DNA of 36,450 nucleotides from Synechococcaceae cyanobacterium SM2_3_1 (GTDB taxonomy: Bacteria > Cyanobacteriota > Cyanobacteriia > Thermostichales > Thermostichaceae): the NCBI GenBank assembly GCA_012030715.1, contig JAAUUJ010000025.1, forward strand, positions 1 through 36,450. The letters run 5' to 3'. Below the pieces are notes generated by a model. That model had not been told where the DNA came from and searched no databases. It saw nothing but the letters and a program-made list of their open reading frames with translations. The translations under genes and the position numbers were made by a program. Below, one piece after another: positions 11,851 through 20,237 of this stretch (the first letter of the stretch is position 1; the number at the start of each line of letters is the position of its first letter).

Positions 11851-12792
11851 CTAAGATTCTCCTGCCACTACATAGTCATCTAGAGAAGCATGAAAGAAAA
11901 AGAGACATCCCGACTCCGTGATCGGGGCATGGGCAGATCCCGGATCTGAACGCAGATAGTCTCCCGCTTCTAGCACGGTGCCATCTTCTAAGATCAAATC
12001 TCCCGAGAGCATGTAGATCTCTTCCGTTTGAGCATGCCGATGACAGGGATACTGGCTGCCCGCCTCTGCCCGCAGTAACCCCACCACTTCCCGTGCCACT
12101 GGATCCTGATGAAACAGGGCAATCGTGATCCCCTCAGCCAGATGGGGATACCACTGCAGATCTGCAGAGCGGACCAATTGAGAGCCTGAGATCGGTGTTG
12201 TGCGCTCTGCCTGAGTCAAGGGGACGGGCTCAAGCGGTTCCAGAAACTGATCCTGATAGCAGGCATGCACCAGGCATATACACCCCCCCAGGGTGCGATG
12301 GGGATGCTGGGAATCCGGAACCGAGCGAATATAGTCTCCAGCCGTGAGAACCGTATCATAGATGATCAGATCTCCCTCCAGCATGTAAATTTCTTCGGGT
12401 CCAACATGCCGATGGACAGGATAGTAAGCTTCTGGGTCTCCTTGCATGAGGGCGACCATCTCTCTTTTCTCTGTATCCACATGCAGTTGTGCCACCTTCA
12501 CCCCCGCCACTGGATGAGATTGCCACTGCCGATCAGAGGCGCGCTGGAGCACCTTGGTTGGGGGGTTGGCCTCTGCTTCTAGGCGGCGTTGCAACCGAGC
12601 TTTTAAATCTGGGGCAGGCGTCACGGGTGTAGCAAGATAGGATAAGCAGGCAAGGGTTTCAGTGATCTGGTTCAGATCCCCTTCTAGCCATTCTTTGTGA
12701 ACGAGTTCGACTTCAAACTGATCTTGCTCCACTGGATCCAGCAGATCTAGTGCATACCATGCCACCATATTCTGCAGTTCGAGATCATTCAT
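11851..12792 (-). CDS. Anti-sigma factor: RskA-like N-terminus plus two ChrR-type cupins
   Basis: This is probably the negative regulator of the sigma factor encoded just upstream. Residues 1-65 resemble the sigma-binding region of RskA/ChrR-class anti-sigma factors (MVAWYALDLLDPVEQDQFE). No Cys-rich zinc motif is visible there, unlike classical ChrR. Two cupin domains follow. Cupin 1 has HRHVGPEEIYMLEG and a later DSQHPH; cupin 2 has HRHAQTEEIYMLSG and GSAHAP. Each therefore keeps the two His, Glu and His metal-ligand set. There is no transmembrane helix, so signalling is likely cytosolic. In ChrR the cupin responds to singlet oxygen or peroxide; the same stimulus here is inferred. The gene lies 22 bases after the sigma gene, in one operon. 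Confidence 0.85.
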   Translation of the reverse strand: MNDLELQNMVAWYALDLLDPVEQDQFEVELVHKEWLEGDLNQITETLACLSYLATPVTPAPDLKARLQRRLEAEANPPTKVLQRASDRQWQSHPVAGVKVAQLHVDTEKREMVALMQGDPEAYYPVHRHVGPEEIYMLEGDLIIYDTVLTAGDYIRSVPDSQHPHRTLGGCICLVHACYQDQFLEPLEPVPLTQAERTTPISGSQLVRSADLQWYPHLAEGITIALFHQDPVAREVVGLLRAEAGSQYPCHRHAQTEEIYMLSGDLILEDGTVLEAGDYLRSDPGSAHAPITESGCLFFFHASLDDYVVAGES

Positions 12793-12814
12793 TGCGGAGT
12801 ACTTTACATTGCGC

Positions 12815-13420
12815 TTAAGTACCAGTGTAATGCGAATTCCCCCCTTGACTGTCCAGCGGTAGCAAGGCGCGGAGCTTACTTAATCCCAGCCGCAGCCGAG
12901 TCTTGACCGTGCCAATAGGGACATTCAGGTGTTCAGCAATTCTGGCCTGGGTCCAGCCGTTAAAGTAGGCCAGCAGGATCACCTCACTTTGTTCTGGAGG
13001 GATCTTCCCAAGGGCAGATCTGACTGCTGACTGCCGCTCTGTTTGTAAGACATGATCCTCTGGGCCAGAGGTGAACGTGCTACTCCCCTCGCGAAAGGTT
13101 TCCAGAGTGATGAGGGTGCGCAGAGCACGTCGTTGCGAACGGATTTTGTCCAGAGCACGGCTGCGGGTCAACAAAAAGAGCCAGGCTTCCACTTGCCCGC
13201 GGTGTGGATCGTAGGACTTTGCTGTGCGCCAGATCTGACTGAAGACATCCAGGACCACTTCCTCTGCGTCCTCAACCGATCCCAGCATTTTGCAGGCTAA
13301 CCCCAACAGGATGCGAGCATAGCGGTCATAAAGGTCGGAGAGGGCAGACTGATCCTGTTGAGCAATCCGCTGCATTAAATGCAATTCATCTGTCAACTGA
13401 TGGGAATTGGGATCTGACAT
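12815..13420 (-). CDS. ECF (group 4) RNA polymerase sigma factor
   Basis: This extracytoplasmic-function sigma factor contains regions 2 and 4 only, in 201 residues. Region 2 is about 15-90 (DRYARILLGLACKMLG, AEEVVLDVFSQIWRTA, AWLFLLTRSRALDKIRSQ). Region 4 is about 135-190 (LAYFNGWTQARIAEHLNVP, then GTVKTRLRLGLSKLR, a helix-turn-helix for the -35 element). The YDP.RG..WL pattern in region 2 resembles the SigK/RskA (ECF19-like) branch. It is transcribed with the cupin anti-sigma factor, so it is probably released under oxidative or similar stress and likely drives its own operon. The exact regulon cannot be seen here. Confidence 0.92.
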   Translation of the reverse strand: MSDPNSHQLTDELHLMQRIAQQDQSALSDLYDRYARILLGLACKMLGSVEDAEEVVLDVFSQIWRTAKSYDPHRGQVEAWLFLLTRSRALDKIRSQRRALRTLITLETFREGSSTFTSGPEDHVLQTERQSAVRSALGKIPPEQSEVILLAYFNGWTQARIAEHLNVPIGTVKTRLRLGLSKLRALLPLDSQGGNSHYTGT

Positions 13421-13777: not shown

Positions 13778-13941
13778 GGTTCAGCCTCTGCGTGAACACC
13801 TCTAGAGTGCCCCAGATCAAGGTATTGAGTGGTGATAACCCTCATAGATTGATGTGATCAAACTCACTCAACCCAGGAATGAGTAGCTTATGCAACCTGC
13901 AGGTACACTGGTGGCATGGAAGATAGTTCTCGAACTCGGCC

Positions 13942-14391
13942 ATGACTGAATCCATTTCCACACGTACCCATCACCTATTGGTGGTTGATGATGACTCCGG
14001 TCGCAGGGTTTTTCGCCTGGAGGCCACCACCTACTCGATTGGTCGAGATCCCACCTGTTCGATTATGCTGCATTCACCCCTGGTCTCGCGTCAACATGCC
14101 CTTCTGGCTCGAATTGGGGGAGGGGAAGGAGCTGCTGGAGTCGGGTACCGCATCTTCGATGGCAATTCCCAGGGCAAGCCCAGCAAGAACGGGATCCTGG
14201 TGCAGGGAGAACGGCGAAGTGCTCATGATCTTGAAGATGGAGATCTGATTGAATTTGCTCCCGAGATTCGGGCTTGTTACTATATTCGCACCATGAGTGA
14301 AGACGATATCTCCCGCTACACCCAGAGCACCCCGTTTCGCAGTATCAAGGCCATGCCCATTGATCAGATTGGGACCTCAGTTCTGGGGTAG
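13942..14391 (+). CDS. FHA-domain phosphothreonine-binding protein
   Basis: This 149-residue protein is essentially a single FHA domain. It shows the strand motif YSIGRDPTCSIML (GR at about residues 34-35), the phosphothreonine pocket SPLVSRQHALL, and KPSKNGILVQGE, which carries the conserved Asn-Gly. A short tail follows after about residue 115. FHA domains bind phosphothreonine partners, usually in Ser/Thr-kinase signalling. No kinase is adjacent; the next gene is a histidine kinase about 150 bases downstream on the same strand. A 9-codon upstream frame beginning at 13917 ends in an ATGA overlap with this start, which might couple translation. Confidence 0.88.
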   Translation: MTESISTRTHHLLVVDDDSGRRVFRLEATTYSIGRDPTCSIMLHSPLVSRQHALLARIGGGEGAAGVGYRIFDGNSQGKPSKNGILVQGERRSAHDLEDGDLIEFAPEIRACYYIRTMSEDDISRYTQSTPFRSIKAMPIDQIGTSVLG

Positions 14392-14492
14392 CCGCGGCTG
14401 GCTCCTGCATAGGATACAGAGAGAACATTTTCAAACACTGAGGTTCTGTCAAGGGGATACTCTGTTATTTACCATGTATATAATTGAGCTGG

Positions 14493-14509
14493 TTGAATAA
14501 TTCATTCAA
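14493..14509. promoter_or_regulatory. Inverted repeat upstream of the GAF-PAS histidine kinase
   Basis: TTGAAT-aattc-ATTCAA is a perfect 6-base inverted repeat with a 5-base spacer, ending 32 bases before the GTG start. It follows an AT-rich TATATAA stretch (around 14476) that could be a -10 element. The size fits a dimeric operator, but no regulator is known. Confidence 0.35.
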
Positions 14510-14541
14510 TCAGATGTAGCAATCTTACGGTAGTAGCTTTC

Positions 14542-16596
14542 GTGCTGAACCTCAATCTGCGACTTAGAAGCTCATCATGGTTACGCTGGCTCAAGGTTCT
14601 TTTCCAGAACCGACGAAGGGTTCCCTCTGATTTTCTCGAGCTCAAGTACAACTTGATCCGCACCCTGATCCGCGAGATTTACGGTCAACAGCCCCTGGAT
14701 CAAGTTCTATCTAAGGCCGCACAACAGGTCTGTGAGATACTCCAGGCAGATCGGGTGCTGATCTACAAGTTAGGGGAGTCTGGACATGGGCAGGTGGTGG
14801 CAGAGGCTGTGGGCTCTTCCATTACCCCTTTACTCGGACAGGTTTTTGTGGATGAGTGTCTGCAGGGAGACTACTTACAGAAGTTTGAGCGTCATTATGT
14901 TAAGGGAACTAAGGACGTAGAAGTAGAGGGATATTTACCCTGCTATCTGCAACTGTTACGCACCCAGGCGATCCAGTCGAATCTGCTGGGGGCCATCTGG
15001 AGCCAGGATCATCTCTGGGGATTACTGTTTGTGCAGCACTGTCAGGGTTCCCATGCCTGGACTTCCTTGGAAGAAGATCTGGTGCGTGAATTACTGGATC
15101 CCCTGGGACTAGCCATTCAGCAAGCTGAAGACGTCCAAAAACTGGATCAATCTCAGCAGAAGTTAGCTGGAATTTTAAGTAATGCCAGTGCCGCGATTGT
15201 CAGTTTCCGTGTGAAAGCAAGCCTGAATCAGAAGGAGTACGACTATTTCTCAGATGGCTGCACCACTGTCTTTGGGTTCAGTCCCGAGGAGTTTAAGGCC
15301 ACTCCCGATCTCTGGGAGTTCCGAATTCTGCAGCAGGATTTAGAAGTGGTCAGATCTCAACTGGAGGAGATCATTTTTCAAGGGGGAGAACTCACCTTCA
15401 GGTACCGTTTTTTACATAAAGATGGCACACTGCACTGGATCTCGGACTCCATCAGTTCTTACTGGAATCGAGAACAGCAATGCTGGCAGGTGACCAATGT
15501 GGCCTACGACATCACAGAACAGAAACAACTGGAAATAGCCTTACAGCAGTCAGAGCAACGGTTACAGAACCTGATCGATCGAGCAGGAGCTGCCATTACC
15601 GGATTTCGAGTCTCGGCTCAGGGAACCTATCAATATGACTACCTTTCCGCTGGCTGTGAGCGCGTTTTTGGCTACAAGGCGGAAGAAATGTTGAGTGATC
15701 AAGATCTCTGGTGGACAGGGGTTCACCCTGATGATCAACCTCACTTACCGCGACCGGGGATCTACACGTCAGCGCAACCGATGCTGCAGGAATATCGTTT
15801 TTTTGCCAAAGATGGCTCTCTACGTTGGATTGCCAACAGCTTCAGTACCCAGGCTGATCCCCGCACGGGTGGGTGGGTGGCGACAGCGGTGGATATTGAT
15901 ATTACCGATCGCAAGCTGGCGGAACTGCAGCTATTAGAGCGAGAAGAACAACTGCGGGCCTCTCTGCGTGAAAAAGATGTCCTGCTCCAGGAAGTACATC
16001 ACCGCGTCAAAAATAATCTGCAGGTGATCTCCAGCTTGATGCGGCTACAATCCCGCACTCTAAGCGAACCCTCGGCTCGGCAAGCCTTTCGAGAATGTCA
16101 GTACCGCATCCAGTCCATCGCCTTAATCCATGAGCAGCTCTATTCAGAACATCAACTAGCCTTGATCGATCTGGCCCGCTATGTGCCGCGATTGGCTCAT
16201 GATATCTACTGCACCCTGGTGACCGATGCCAACCGGATCCGATTGGGGGTGGAAGCGGACTCCATTGAGTTGAATCTCGATCAGGCGATTGCCTGTGGGT
16301 TGATTTTAAATGAGTTGATCACCAATGCTTGCAAACATGCCTTTCCTCAACAGTCGCAGGGTTTCATCCGTGTCGCTTGTCTGCAACGCTCTGGCCAGGC
16401 TAGTCTATGTGTCTCAGATGATGGTGTTGGTCTCCCCACTACTAATTTAAGGCAGATCAATCCCGAATCCCTGGGACTCTCACTAGTTTGTGATCTGTGT
16501 TCTAAAATAAAAGGAATGGTGAGTGTCAATTTGACTCATGGTACTGAGATTTGCATCACCTGGCCGATTGCGCCTATTTCAGATCCCCCACAGTGA
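14542..16596 (+). CDS. Sensor histidine kinase: cyanobacteriochrome-like GAF, two PAS, HisKA_2/HATPase
   Basis: This is a soluble sensor kinase with no membrane helix. Residues about 45-200 form a GAF domain of phytochrome/cyanobacteriochrome type (ADRVLIYKL). It carries Cys106 in DECL and Cys134 in LPCYLQLL, exactly 28 residues apart, the spacing seen in DXCF cyanobacteriochromes. Two PAS domains follow (about 210-335 and 340-465; DGTLHWISDS and DGSLRWIANS are their C-terminal strands). The kinase core is HisKA_2, with phosphoacceptor LQEVHHRVKNNLQVIS (His486/487), N-box LNELITNACKHAF and G-box VSDDGVGLP. The start is a GTG with a weak ribosome site, so the exact N-terminus is uncertain. A receiver-kinase gene follows 8 bases later and is the likely signalling partner. 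Confidence 0.9.
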   Translation: MLNLNLRLRSSSWLRWLKVLFQNRRRVPSDFLELKYNLIRTLIREIYGQQPLDQVLSKAAQQVCEILQADRVLIYKLGESGHGQVVAEAVGSSITPLLGQVFVDECLQGDYLQKFERHYVKGTKDVEVEGYLPCYLQLLRTQAIQSNLLGAIWSQDHLWGLLFVQHCQGSHAWTSLEEDLVRELLDPLGLAIQQAEDVQKLDQSQQKLAGILSNASAAIVSFRVKASLNQKEYDYFSDGCTTVFGFSPEEFKATPDLWEFRILQQDLEVVRSQLEEIIFQGGELTFRYRFLHKDGTLHWISDSISSYWNREQQCWQVTNVAYDITEQKQLEIALQQSEQRLQNLIDRAGAAITGFRVSAQGTYQYDYLSAGCERVFGYKAEEMLSDQDLWWTGVHPDDQPHLPRPGIYTSAQPMLQEYRFFAKDGSLRWIANSFSTQADPRTGGWVATAVDIDITDRKLAELQLLEREEQLRASLREKDVLLQEVHHRVKNNLQVISSLMRLQSRTLSEPSARQAFRECQYRIQSIALIHEQLYSEHQLALIDLARYVPRLAHDIYCTLVTDANRIRLGVEADSIELNLDQAIACGLILNELITNACKHAFPQQSQGFIRVACLQRSGQASLCVSDDGVGLPTTNLRQINPESLGLSLVCDLCSKIKGMVSVNLTHGTEICITWPIAPISDPPQ

Positions 16597-16604
16597 GTTC
16601 TTCA

Positions 16605-18052
16605 ATGCTGGATATTGGCAAAGCCAGCCTGTTTGTGGTCGAGGACGAAATTCTGGTCGCCCGTGATCTGCGCACCAGTCTGGAGGATTTGGGCTATGCC
16701 GTTGTCGGTACGGCTACTTCTGGCGAGGAAGCACTGGCCAAGGTGCCTTTACTTCATCCTGACCTGATCCTGATGGATATTCGTCTGGAGGGAGAACTGG
16801 ACGGCATCCAGACTGCTGAGATCATTCGTCGCCGATGGCGGATCCCCACCCTTTATTTGACAGCGCGTTCAGATATCGAGACGCTACAGCGGGCTAAGCA
16901 GACGCGGCCTCTGGGATTTTTGACCAAACCTCTGCGCTCCCAGGATCTGCAGGCAACGATTGAAATGGCCCTGATGCGCCCCCCCTGTTCTCCGGAAGCA
17001 GTTTACCGCTGGGATCCTCTGTTTTTTGTCCTCAATACACTGGAGGAGGCAGTGGTGGTGGTCAACAATCTTAACCAGATCACCCACACCAATCCGGCGG
17101 CAGATCTGGCGCTGGGCGCTTCCCATGAACGTGTTGATGGACAGGCTGCTGAGGTGATTCTGCCCCTGCCCGCTCATATTTGCAGCTGGGATACGATTCT
17201 CAACAGTCCCGGCCCGATGCTACTACCCCCAGAGTTTTCCTGCCTCATGCGATCTGGACGACATCTCCATCTCCATCAAGCCCGTGCTATTCCGTTGCAA
17301 GATGAAGAAGGCTCACCCCAGGGGGCCATGCTGATCTGGGATCCTCAGGTGCCTAATAGCCAGTTGATCCATGCTTTTGTGGAAACCATCTCCCATGAGT
17401 TGAAGACTCCCCTGACGGCGATGAAAATGGCGTTGCACCTGCTGAAAGTAGCTCGTCACAATTCGCCTCATTCAGAACCCAGTCCTACTGACCAGCGGTA
17501 CCTGGGGATCCTCGATAAAGAACTGGAAAAAGAAATTGAACTGGTGAACTCGCTTCTGGATTTTGAGCGCCTGGAATACCTGGCAGCCCCTCTGGAGATA
17601 CAATTTCTCGATCTGTATCCCTGGCTCCTGCAGCATTTGCAGTTATGGGAAGCTAGGGTGGCGACGGCTAACCTGACCCTCACCTGGGATCTGCCTGGCT
17701 CCCTGCCTGCCATTCAAACCGATCCTTCCCATCTCGAGAGAATCCTGAACGAATTGCTCACCAATGCCTGTCGCTTCAGCCCAGCGGAGAATCGATTCAT
17801 GTGCAACTGACCCTCAGGGATCAAACCCTACAGTTCAGGATCACGAACACTGGGGTGACGATTGCCGAGTCCTTTCACCGCCTCATTTTTAAACCCTTCT
17901 ACCGTGTTCCTTCCACCGATCCTTACCAGTTCCCAGGTACAGGACTGGGGTTAGCCACGGTACGGCATCTGGTGAGTCTTCTCGGGGGATCTATTCAGGT
18001 GGAAAGTGGGAATCACCAGGTAGGTTTCCAGATCAACTTGCCCATTGGTTAG
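16605..18052 (+). CDS. Hybrid receiver-PAS-histidine kinase (single-base frameshift)
   Basis: The domain order is a receiver domain first (residues 1-125; phosphoacceptor Asp58 in LILMDIRL, and FLTKPL), a PAS-like region (about 145-250; VVNNLNQITHTNPAAD), then HisKA (SHELKTPLTAMKMAL, His264) and HATPase. The frame breaks near 17795, between N-box LNELLTNACRFSP and the rest: QLTLRDQTLQF, then the G2-box FPGTGLGLATVRHLV, lies in another frame to 18052. Adding one base near 17795 restores a kinase of about 482 residues. The stop caused by the break, at 17808-17810, would remove the ATP lid. The gene begins 8 bases after the GAF-PAS kinase and is probably its co-transcribed partner. The start ATG at 16605 gives a normal receiver N-terminus. 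Confidence 0.85.
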
Positions 18053-18073
18053 GAAAGGGGGCTGCTTCTTTCC
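18052..18073. terminator. Possible weak hairpin after the hybrid kinase
   Basis: GGAAAG (18052-18057) pairs with CTTTCC (18068-18073) around a 10-base loop, immediately after the kinase stop codon. There is no clear T-tract, so termination is uncertain. Confidence 0.25.
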
Positions 18074-18124
18074 CTTGATCCCACATGATCCGCAAACCAT
18101 AAATCGGGCAGACAGACTCCAGCG

Positions 18125-18138
18125 TCCACTATTGTGGA
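18125..18138. promoter_or_regulatory. Short inverted repeat upstream of the MoxR gene
   Basis: TCCAC-TATT-GTGGA is a perfect 5-base inverted repeat ending 25 bases before the MoxR ATG at 18164. It overlaps an alternative GTG start at 18134. It could be a small operator or chance. Confidence 0.2.
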
Positions 18139-18163
18139 GAGAGGTTGCGTTCTGCTCAAATTC

Positions 18164-19141
18164 ATGGAAACCACTACCTCGGATAGTAAGGCCTCACTGC
18201 TCCCTCTCACGGAACAGATCAGCCAGTTAACTGCGAACGTGGGGTCTGTCTTCTTGGGGAAGTCGGAGGTGATCCAGATGGTGGTGACCGCGCTGATCGC
18301 CCGGGGGCATATTTTGCTGGAGGATGTTCCGGGTGTCGGAAAAACCACCCTGGCCCAGGCCATTGCCCGCAGTTTGGGGGCTGACTTTCAACGCATTCAA
18401 TTTACCAGTGATCTTTTGCCCAGCGATATTCTCGGGATCAGTATCTTCAATAAAGACACACGTATCTTTGAGTTTCGACCGGGTCCGATTTTTGCCCATG
18501 TGGTTCTGGCGGATGAGATTAACCGCACCTCCCCTCGCACCCAGAGTGCCCTGTTAGAGGCCATGGCCGAGAGCCGCATCTCCTTAGATGATCAAACCTA
18601 TCGCCTGCCGGATCCCTTTATCGTCCTGGCCACCCAAAACCCGCTGGAGTACCACGGCACCTATCCTCTGCCGGAAAGTCAGCTGGATCGGTTTTTAATG
18701 CGCCTCTCGATCGGCTATCCCGCTCAGGATATTGAGCGCAAGCTTTTGCTGGAACGGCGTGCCTCTGAGCCTGTCGAGGAACTGAAAACGGCCATGTCAC
18801 TGCCATCACTACAGGAGATTCAGACCAAGGTGGATCAGGTGCAGATGGATGAATCGCTGGCGGACTATATTCTGCAGGTGGTGCAGGCGACTCGGAGCTC
18901 ATCACTACTGCGGGCAGGGGTTTCGACTCGGGGGGCACTCGCCTTAGCTCGGGCAGCCAGAGCCCATGCCCTGATTCAGGGACGCACCTATTGCATTCCC
19001 GATGATCTCACGCATCTTTTTGTTCCGGTTCTGGCTCACCGCATTTCCCTGAGTGGCTTACCCGATTCTTTCCAGAGCACGCGCCGCGAAGCCGAAACGA
19101 TCATTCTAGATATTGTGGCAGGGATCGAGGCTCCCGTGTGA
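18164..19141 (+). CDS. MoxR-family AAA+ ATPase
   Basis: This is a MoxR-type AAA+ chaperone ATPase, usually working with DUF58 and von Willebrand-type proteins to mature or activate partner complexes. It shows Walker A PGVGKTTLAQA, Walker B VVLADEINRTSPRTQSALLE, sensor 1 VLATQNPLEYHGTYPLPESQ, and an arginine-finger region (SQLDRFLMRL). The length of 325 residues is normal for the family. I chose the ATG at 18164 (METTTSDSK); a GTG at 18134 would add ten residues with no better ribosome site. The stop overlaps the GTG start of the DUF58 gene by four bases (GTGA), so the two are translationally coupled. Confidence 0.92.
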   Translation: METTTSDSKASLLPLTEQISQLTANVGSVFLGKSEVIQMVVTALIARGHILLEDVPGVGKTTLAQAIARSLGADFQRIQFTSDLLPSDILGISIFNKDTRIFEFRPGPIFAHVVLADEINRTSPRTQSALLEAMAESRISLDDQTYRLPDPFIVLATQNPLEYHGTYPLPESQLDRFLMRLSIGYPAQDIERKLLLERRASEPVEELKTAMSLPSLQEIQTKVDQVQMDESLADYILQVVQATRSSSLLRAGVSTRGALALARAARAHALIQGRTYCIPDDLTHLFVPVLAHRISLSGLPDSFQSTRREAETIILDIVAGIEAPV

Positions 19142-20237
19142 GGTTGGGAAGAAAGATTCGTCTACCCCGCAAGTTTTCTCTGACTCGGATCGGTCGCATT
19201 TTTATTGGCATCACGATCCTGGTAAGTATTGCGGCCTTTAATACTGGCAACAATGCCCTCTATCTGTTGTTTTCATTAATGCTGAGTCTGATCTTGATCA
19301 GCGGCATCCTTTCCGAGGCAGTTCTGCAGGGGATTAGGGTAGAGCGACAGTGGCCGCGGCATATTTTGCAGGGCAGGACACGATCATTCCGGTAACCGTT
19401 GTAAACACCAAGCGCCGTGCCAGCTACTCGTTGCTGATCAGCGAGCAAGTGCAGGATCTAACCCATCCGTCTTTCTTTATTCTGCAACTGGATCCCCAGC
19501 AGGAGGTCGCATCCTCCTATCGCATGCATTTTCCCAGGCGGGGAGTGTGGAGAAGTCAGGGCTACGAGATCACCACTACTTTTCCTTTTGAGCTGTTTCG
19601 CAAAGGTCTGGAAGTCTTTCACCCAGAAGAGATTTTGGTTTTTCCCCGTCCCATTCCTCCTGCACGGCTTCCCCACTTCACCAGCCGTCCCCTGGGAGAG
19701 ATCGCTCGTCCTACCAAAGGGAACACCGGAGATTTTCGTAGTCTGAGGGAGTATCGTAGCAGCGACAGTATGCGGCATGTGCACTGGAAGGTGTCTGCTA
19801 AACGCGATCAACTGGTGATCCGAGAGCTAGAAGGACAGGCCCTTGATAGTCTGATCGTTTGCTTCTATAACAGCTGGCACCCCTATCCCTACGCTTCGGA
19901 ATGGATCTGTGAAGATCTGGAACAACACCGCCAGCGGCTAGAAAGGGGGGTAGAAGCCTGTGCAGGACTGATTCAACATTTGATCAACCGCCGACATCCG
20001 GTTGCCCTGGTAACGCTGCAGGATCGCACCCCCTACGGCAACAGTGCCTTGCACATGGAAGGGATCCTGAAGCTACTGGCGCGTCTGCAATTTGTAGGAG
20101 AACCGGACAGCCCTACCCTAACCCGAACGCTTGCTTTTGATCTGCAACCCCAGGATCGGTGCATTCTCATGGCGGAAGGGCCTGTTTTTCCTGAGATTAC
20201 GACGGGTCAGGTGGTGGCGAAGATCCCTTTTGGGTAA
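19138..20237 (+). CDS. DUF58 membrane protein, MoxR partner (frameshift)
   Basis: The N-terminal part has two membrane helices (IGRIFIGITILVSIAAF and ALYLLFSLMLSLILISGIL), followed by a cytoplasmic or extracytoplasmic body. The DUF58 signature is clear: LREYRSSDSMRHVHWKVSA, then KRDQLVIRELEGQ. The frame breaks at the T4 run 19364-19367. The first frame ends in a spurious RTRSFR, whereas one more T gives the continuous RHIFAGQDTIIPVTVVN. Restored length is about 367 residues. Start is a GTG overlapping the MoxR stop, a typical coupled MoxR/DUF58 pair. The stop abuts the convergent DUF192 gene with no intervening base. Function is inferred from the family. Confidence 0.85.

Follow-up and report, generated by a model that had tools for sequence, protein, structure and literature searches.

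A divergent DXCF-type cyanobacteriochrome-like GAF domain on a PAS-PAS-HisKA_2 histidine kinase gene of a Synechococcaceae cyanobacterium

The window, a 36,450-nucleotide stretch of contig JAAUUJ010000025.1 from Synechococcaceae cyanobacterium SM2_3_1, carries on its forward strand a 684-amino acid histidine kinase ORF with a GTG start (14542–16596, ORF listing and translation), followed by a response-regulator gene. Pfam searches of the kinase detected GAF, two PAS_3 domains, HisKA_2 and HATPase_c, with no PHY domain. The features are listed below, with their supporting evidence in brackets.

14542–16596, forward strand: sensor histidine kinase ORF, GAF-PAS-PAS-HisKA_2-HATPase_c (ORF listing, translation, Pfam)
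14641–15132, forward strand: DXCF-type cyanobacteriochrome-like GAF domain, residues 34–197 (phmmer against PDB, DXCF versus red/green profile scores)
14851–14862, forward strand: D-E-C-L motif, Asp104–Leu107; Cys106 corresponds to TePixJ Cys494, expected reversible C10 linkage (alignment)
14935–14946, forward strand: L-P-C-Y motif, Leu132–Tyr135; Cys134 corresponds to TePixJ Cys522, expected stable C3(1) linkage (alignment)
15175–15984, forward strand: two PAS domains, approximately residues 212–481 (two stretches each with Pfam PAS_3 and TIGR00229)
15991–16209, forward strand: HisKA_2 dimerisation/phosphoacceptor domain, H-box EVHHRVKNN, residues 484–556 (Pfam PF07568, 92.4 bits)
16297–16569, forward strand: HATPase_c, residues 586–676 (Pfam PF02518)
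16605–18052, forward strand: response regulator-HisKA-HATPase gene, likely phosphotransfer partner (Pfam; similar genes 3' of related kinases)

Pfam placed the GAF domain at residues 52–192 of the kinase (47.5 bits, E = 3e-12), and its best-supported boundary is approximately 14641–15132; the longer stretch 14542–15140 also takes in some 33 residues N-terminal to this GAF. The HisKA_2 motifs, including the H-box, and those of HATPase_c are intact in the translation and by Pfam, and their presence in the same ORF bears out an earlier reading of the sequence alone, which had put the GAF on a kinase. A promoter scan of 13800–18300 detected no sigma-70-type site. Directly upstream of the kinase is a gene for a small FHA-domain protein (13942–14391, forward strand). 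Approximately 1.1 kb from the putative photoreceptor gene, the reverse strand (11851–13420) encodes an ECF sigma factor (12815–13420) and then an anti-sigma protein (11851–12792), a ChrR-like cupin that contains two Cupin_7 stretches. In Rhodobacter, an ECF sigma/ChrR-type pair answers singlet oxygen.

The kinase stop, which ends at 16596, is separated by eight bases from the regulator ATG at 16605 on the same strand. Pfam detected Response_reg and HisKA in an ORF at 16551–17810 and the second half of HATPase_c in another at 17801–18052, the gene being frame-broken at about 17795–17805, within its ATPase domain. This frameshift may be an assembly error or may mark a pseudogene, both being compatible with the data. 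An apparent frameshift near 19350–19395 also splits a DUF58 gene (19138–20237) adjoining a MoxR-type AAA ATPase gene (18134–19141), and two frame breaks within 1.6 kb, in the regulator and DUF58 genes, hint at sequencing or assembly errors.

Of 28 related kinases, 24 are followed immediately, in the same orientation, by a similar response-regulator ORF. The HisKA_2 kinase and response regulator are a conserved cassette, hence this pair is the likely phosphotransfer route. Inputs of the sampled related kinases comprised IPHGHCYLW segments (the ethylene receptor motif, recognised by eye), PAS domains and ordinary GAF domains. A search of the 28 with the DXCF profile found no dual-Cys GAF, only weak GAFs lacking the cysteines (best 63.8 bits), a negative which is incomplete as many of these loci end at edges and six were re-fetched with longer flanks. 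Within this sample, the gene in the window is the only one in which a dual-Cys GAF is linked to the cassette. Six of the HisKA_2 kinases (L016, L022, L023, L026, L030 and L035) have an ethylene-receptor-like N-terminus with IPHGHCYLW and are paired with a response regulator-HisKA gene; pairs of the L016 type recur in cyanobacteria as a cassette whose inputs are interchangeable.

Cysteines occur at residues 64, 106, 134 and 167 in the N-terminal part of the kinase. Two of these had been singled out from the sequence alone, Cys106 in DECL and Cys134 in LPCY, 28 residues apart, and the translation places them exactly so. Searching PDB sequences with phmmer, the top matches to the GAF were all cyanobacteriochromes or phytochromes, with the best cyanobacteriochrome GAFs at E values from 4e-22 to 1e-14 (matches include 6oap at 4e-22, 5zoh, 6bhn, TePixJ 3vv4 at 7e-15 and AnPixJ 3w2z). 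The alignment to TePixJ 3vv4 is gapless over residues 62–193, through both Cys motifs, therefore Cys106 corresponds to Cys494 and Cys134, the canonical ring A attachment residue, to Cys522, and both cysteines coincide with chromophore-binding positions, the check which the sequence-only reading had proposed. In TePixJ (residue numbering throughout after PMC6955287), Cys522 bonds C3(1) of ring A and Cys494 bonds C10, Asp492 and Asn535 are neighbours of the chromophore, and His498 and Trp499 bond the ring B propionate (PMC6955287). We aligned 48 GAFs taken from fetched loci, of which 34 have Cys in both columns; this dual-Cys sample was gathered with the query GAF itself and is biased toward it. 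A third family cysteine, Cys555 of TePixJ, is conserved in all 34 of these relatives and is present as Cys167. With 16 cysteines in all, the kinase has this residue often, which would favour a coincidental spacing in a GAF unrelated to phytochromes, but the uniform identity of the best PDB matches and the third cysteine make such a coincidence extremely improbable.

The PDB matches and absence of a PHY domain place the GAF by sequence among those of cyanobacteriochromes. It scored 156.9 bits against a profile of the 34 other dual-Cys GAFs and 72.8 bits, a difference of 84, against a red/green (XRG) profile that was built from four GAFs and scores its own members at 288–311 bits. It has FVDECL instead of the WXDXXL of the XRG class, and also the second Cys. 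In the Asp-X-Cys-Phe motif, Asp and Cys are in exact register and Phe is replaced by Leu, as in six of the 34 otherwise typical dual-Cys relatives. Of six GAFs from the same genome lacking one or both cysteines, five scored 100–125 bits on the DXCF profile, at least 32 bits below the query, and the other (L004), canonical apart from its lost ring A Cys, scored 218 bits. By anatomy the domain belongs to an ordinary, DXCF-like kind of photoreceptor, within which it is strongly divergent. The TePixJ alignment and DXCF profile score agree with the earlier classification as a DXCF-like cyanobacteriochrome GAF, which is supported, while the argument for novelty that accompanied it is not.

That argument relied on Leu replacing Phe after the first Cys and Tyr replacing His after the second, taken as signs of an unusual photocycle. 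Both substitutions are present, but among the 34 dual-Cys relatives the first position is occupied by Phe (n = 27), Leu (n = 6) or Tyr (n = 1) and the second by His (n = 18), Tyr (n = 14) or other residues (n = 2); as Leu107 and Tyr135 recur in this way, we dropped DECL/CY as a mark of an unusual photocycle. In one GAF (L055) Leu and Tyr occur together, and Arg507 is replaced by Tyr and His553 by Gln, as in the query. A literature search found no named DXCL variant.

The real oddity of the GAF is its divergence, seen as a long branch and the replacement of Pro539 by Ala (Pro in 33/34 relatives), Val538 by Gly (Val in 28/34), Gly506 by His (Gly in 32/34) and His553 by Gln (shared by 4/34). In a maximum-likelihood tree its terminal branch measured 1.89 substitutions per site against a median of 0.38 and its placement was insecure; AU tests of clades that united it with XRG, phytochrome or degenerate GAFs rejected none of these, and because the branch is so long both the placement and the tests are uninformative. 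A search of 388 cyanobacterial genomes with the GAF returned best matches of 30–40% identity and none above 40%, the closest being nearly all dual-Cys, while a search of 84,980 named genomes returned phytochrome-type GAFs and distant matches only. Across 59 relatives, a full-protein search yielded no orthologue that carries this GAF; neither this search nor that of the 388 genomes supplied a close orthologue that could show selection on the Cys pair. An AlphaFold model made from few sequences had a pLDDT of 60, falling below 50 across the pocket, too low for use in a fold search.

The long branch, the lost near-invariant Pro and Gly and the distance of all relatives (40% identity or less) make the loss of bilin binding a serious rival. 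Here the domain would be a former cyanobacteriochrome GAF acting as an ordinary GAF input, with its Cys pair kept by chance, for sensing a small ligand or redox state, or for structure. Loss of Val538 points the same way, and several GAFs in other proteins of this genome plainly lack the cysteines. The pocket residues bear on both sides. Asp104 (Asp492), Cys106, Cys134 and Asn147 (Asn535) are all retained, whereas the five degenerate GAFs of the same genome, a comparison biased by their having been chosen for a missing Cys pair, lack the equivalents of both Asp492 and Asn535 and retain no more than one of these four residues; the margin of the query over these five on the DXCF profile also argues against loss. 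However, there are 48 columns in which 80% or more of the dual-Cys GAFs agree, and the query keeps 30 of them, against 33 (TePixJ) to 48 in the dual-Cys members themselves; at that rate the chance of retaining all four residues is about 0.14, so their retention is only mild evidence for pigment binding. This low count, the loss of Pro539 and Gly506, Gln in place of His553, Asp and Tyr in place of His498 and Trp499, and the broken frame of the partner gene downstream in this assembly would count against a working photoreceptor. Weighing both sides, we consider a loss of bilin binding somewhat unlikely.

The genome is cyanobacterial and encodes a single Fe_bilin_red (PcyA-family) gene (222.8 bits), so that this organism may be expected to have phycocyanobilin. 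Genome-wide there are 39 Pfam GAF matches and at least four further dual-Cys GAFs, on contigs C94, C100, C73 and C29. One protein on the last of these (G000:C29:15775–17283, reverse strand; L002, L005 and L008) carries three tandem GAFs, one dual-Cys with DXCL/CY, one of red/green type and one from which both cysteines have been lost.

From the observed domain order, the alignment of the cysteines with the Asp and Asn residues, and the conservation of the gene pair, we judge it somewhat probable that the GAF is a divergent cyanobacteriochrome of the DXCF type and that the PAS-PAS-HisKA_2 kinase which bears it signals to the response-regulator kinase downstream. Cys134 would hold phycocyanobilin through ring A, and a reversible bond between Cys106 and C10 would produce a dark state that absorbs blue or violet light. 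Light would isomerise C15=C16 and break the Cys106 bond, yielding a product absorbing at longer wavelength, and the signal would pass from the GAF through the two PAS domains and the HisKA_2 kinase to the response-regulator kinase encoded directly downstream. In typical DXCF domains, which switch between blue and green, phycocyanobilin is turned into phycoviolobilin (PMC11284453), and teal products have been ascribed to Phe residues which trap ring D, with the beta2 Phe central (PMC5578081). At these positions the query has Leu (beta1), Val (beta2) and, in the helix, Gln; by such motif rules a teal product would be less likely and a green or orange one more so.

Phycocyanobilin could also be bound through Cys134 only, with green or red rather than blue absorption in the absence of a Cys106–C10 adduct, or with Cys106 serving only in isomerisation of the pigment. 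Around Cys106 the sequence is altered (Leu107, Gly109, and Asp110 and Tyr111 at the positions of His498 and Trp499), and the DXCF cyanobacteriochrome AM1_6305g1 is reported to have a second Cys dispensable for isomerisation (cited in PMC11284453). Against this, the D-x-C core is intact and exact in position, and two of the changes around it recur in the family: of the 34 relatives, six have Leu next to the first Cys and 23 have Tyr where TePixJ has Trp499. We therefore regard binding through Cys134 only as distinctly unlikely. A bolder form of the dual-Cys reading is that the remodelled pocket (NLLGAI for NLVVPI, His553 to Gln, Gly506 to His and Asp110 near the ring B propionate) is that of a working dual-Cys photoreceptor with a photocycle new among described DXCF sensors, bringing light input to a cassette that elsewhere has ethylene-receptor-like, PAS or plain GAF inputs; taken as a whole, we think this improbable.

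Should the GAF bind pigment, it would show how much drift a two-cysteine pocket tolerates while still working and offer a further starting point for blue/green optogenetic switches, and it would put a light input on a kinase-regulator pair whose inputs elsewhere are quite different. If it does not, two conserved cysteines can outlive pigment binding, a caution for motif-based annotation.

Among known systems, the GAF resembles that of TePixJ (PDB 3vv4, 4glq, 6pru) in its equivalents of Cys494, Cys522, Asp492, Asn535 and Cys555 and in the gapless motif region. It differs in overall identity (28%), in having DECL rather than DPCF and Tyr for His523, and at Gly506 (His), Arg507 (Tyr), Val538 (Gly), Pro539 (Ala) and His553 (Gln), and its output is a HisKA_2 kinase where that of TePixJ is methyl-accepting chemotaxis. 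The L055 GAF (genome G130) shares all four query pocket variants (DXCL, CY, Tyr for Arg507, and QHC) at 34% identity, but is otherwise canonical, keeps Gly506 and Pro539, and belongs to a response regulator-GAF-GAF-HisKA-HATPase protein (by eye) unlike the architecture here. In the HisKA_2 and response regulator cassettes (such as L016, L022, L023 and L030) the kinase is 35–48% identical over the matched region and the response-regulator gene, often with HisKA, is likewise directly downstream on the same strand, but their N-termini are ethylene-receptor-like membrane segments (by eye), PAS domains or ordinary GAFs, with no dual-Cys GAF. UirS of Synechocystis (Slr1212, SynEtr1) also carries an ethylene-receptor membrane segment, which is absent from the kinase in the window. 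Set beside the query by description only, UirS is similar in joining a DXCF cyanobacteriochrome to a cognate response regulator (PMC5578081), and the abstract of PMC6682694 describes SynEtr1 as an ethylene receptor.
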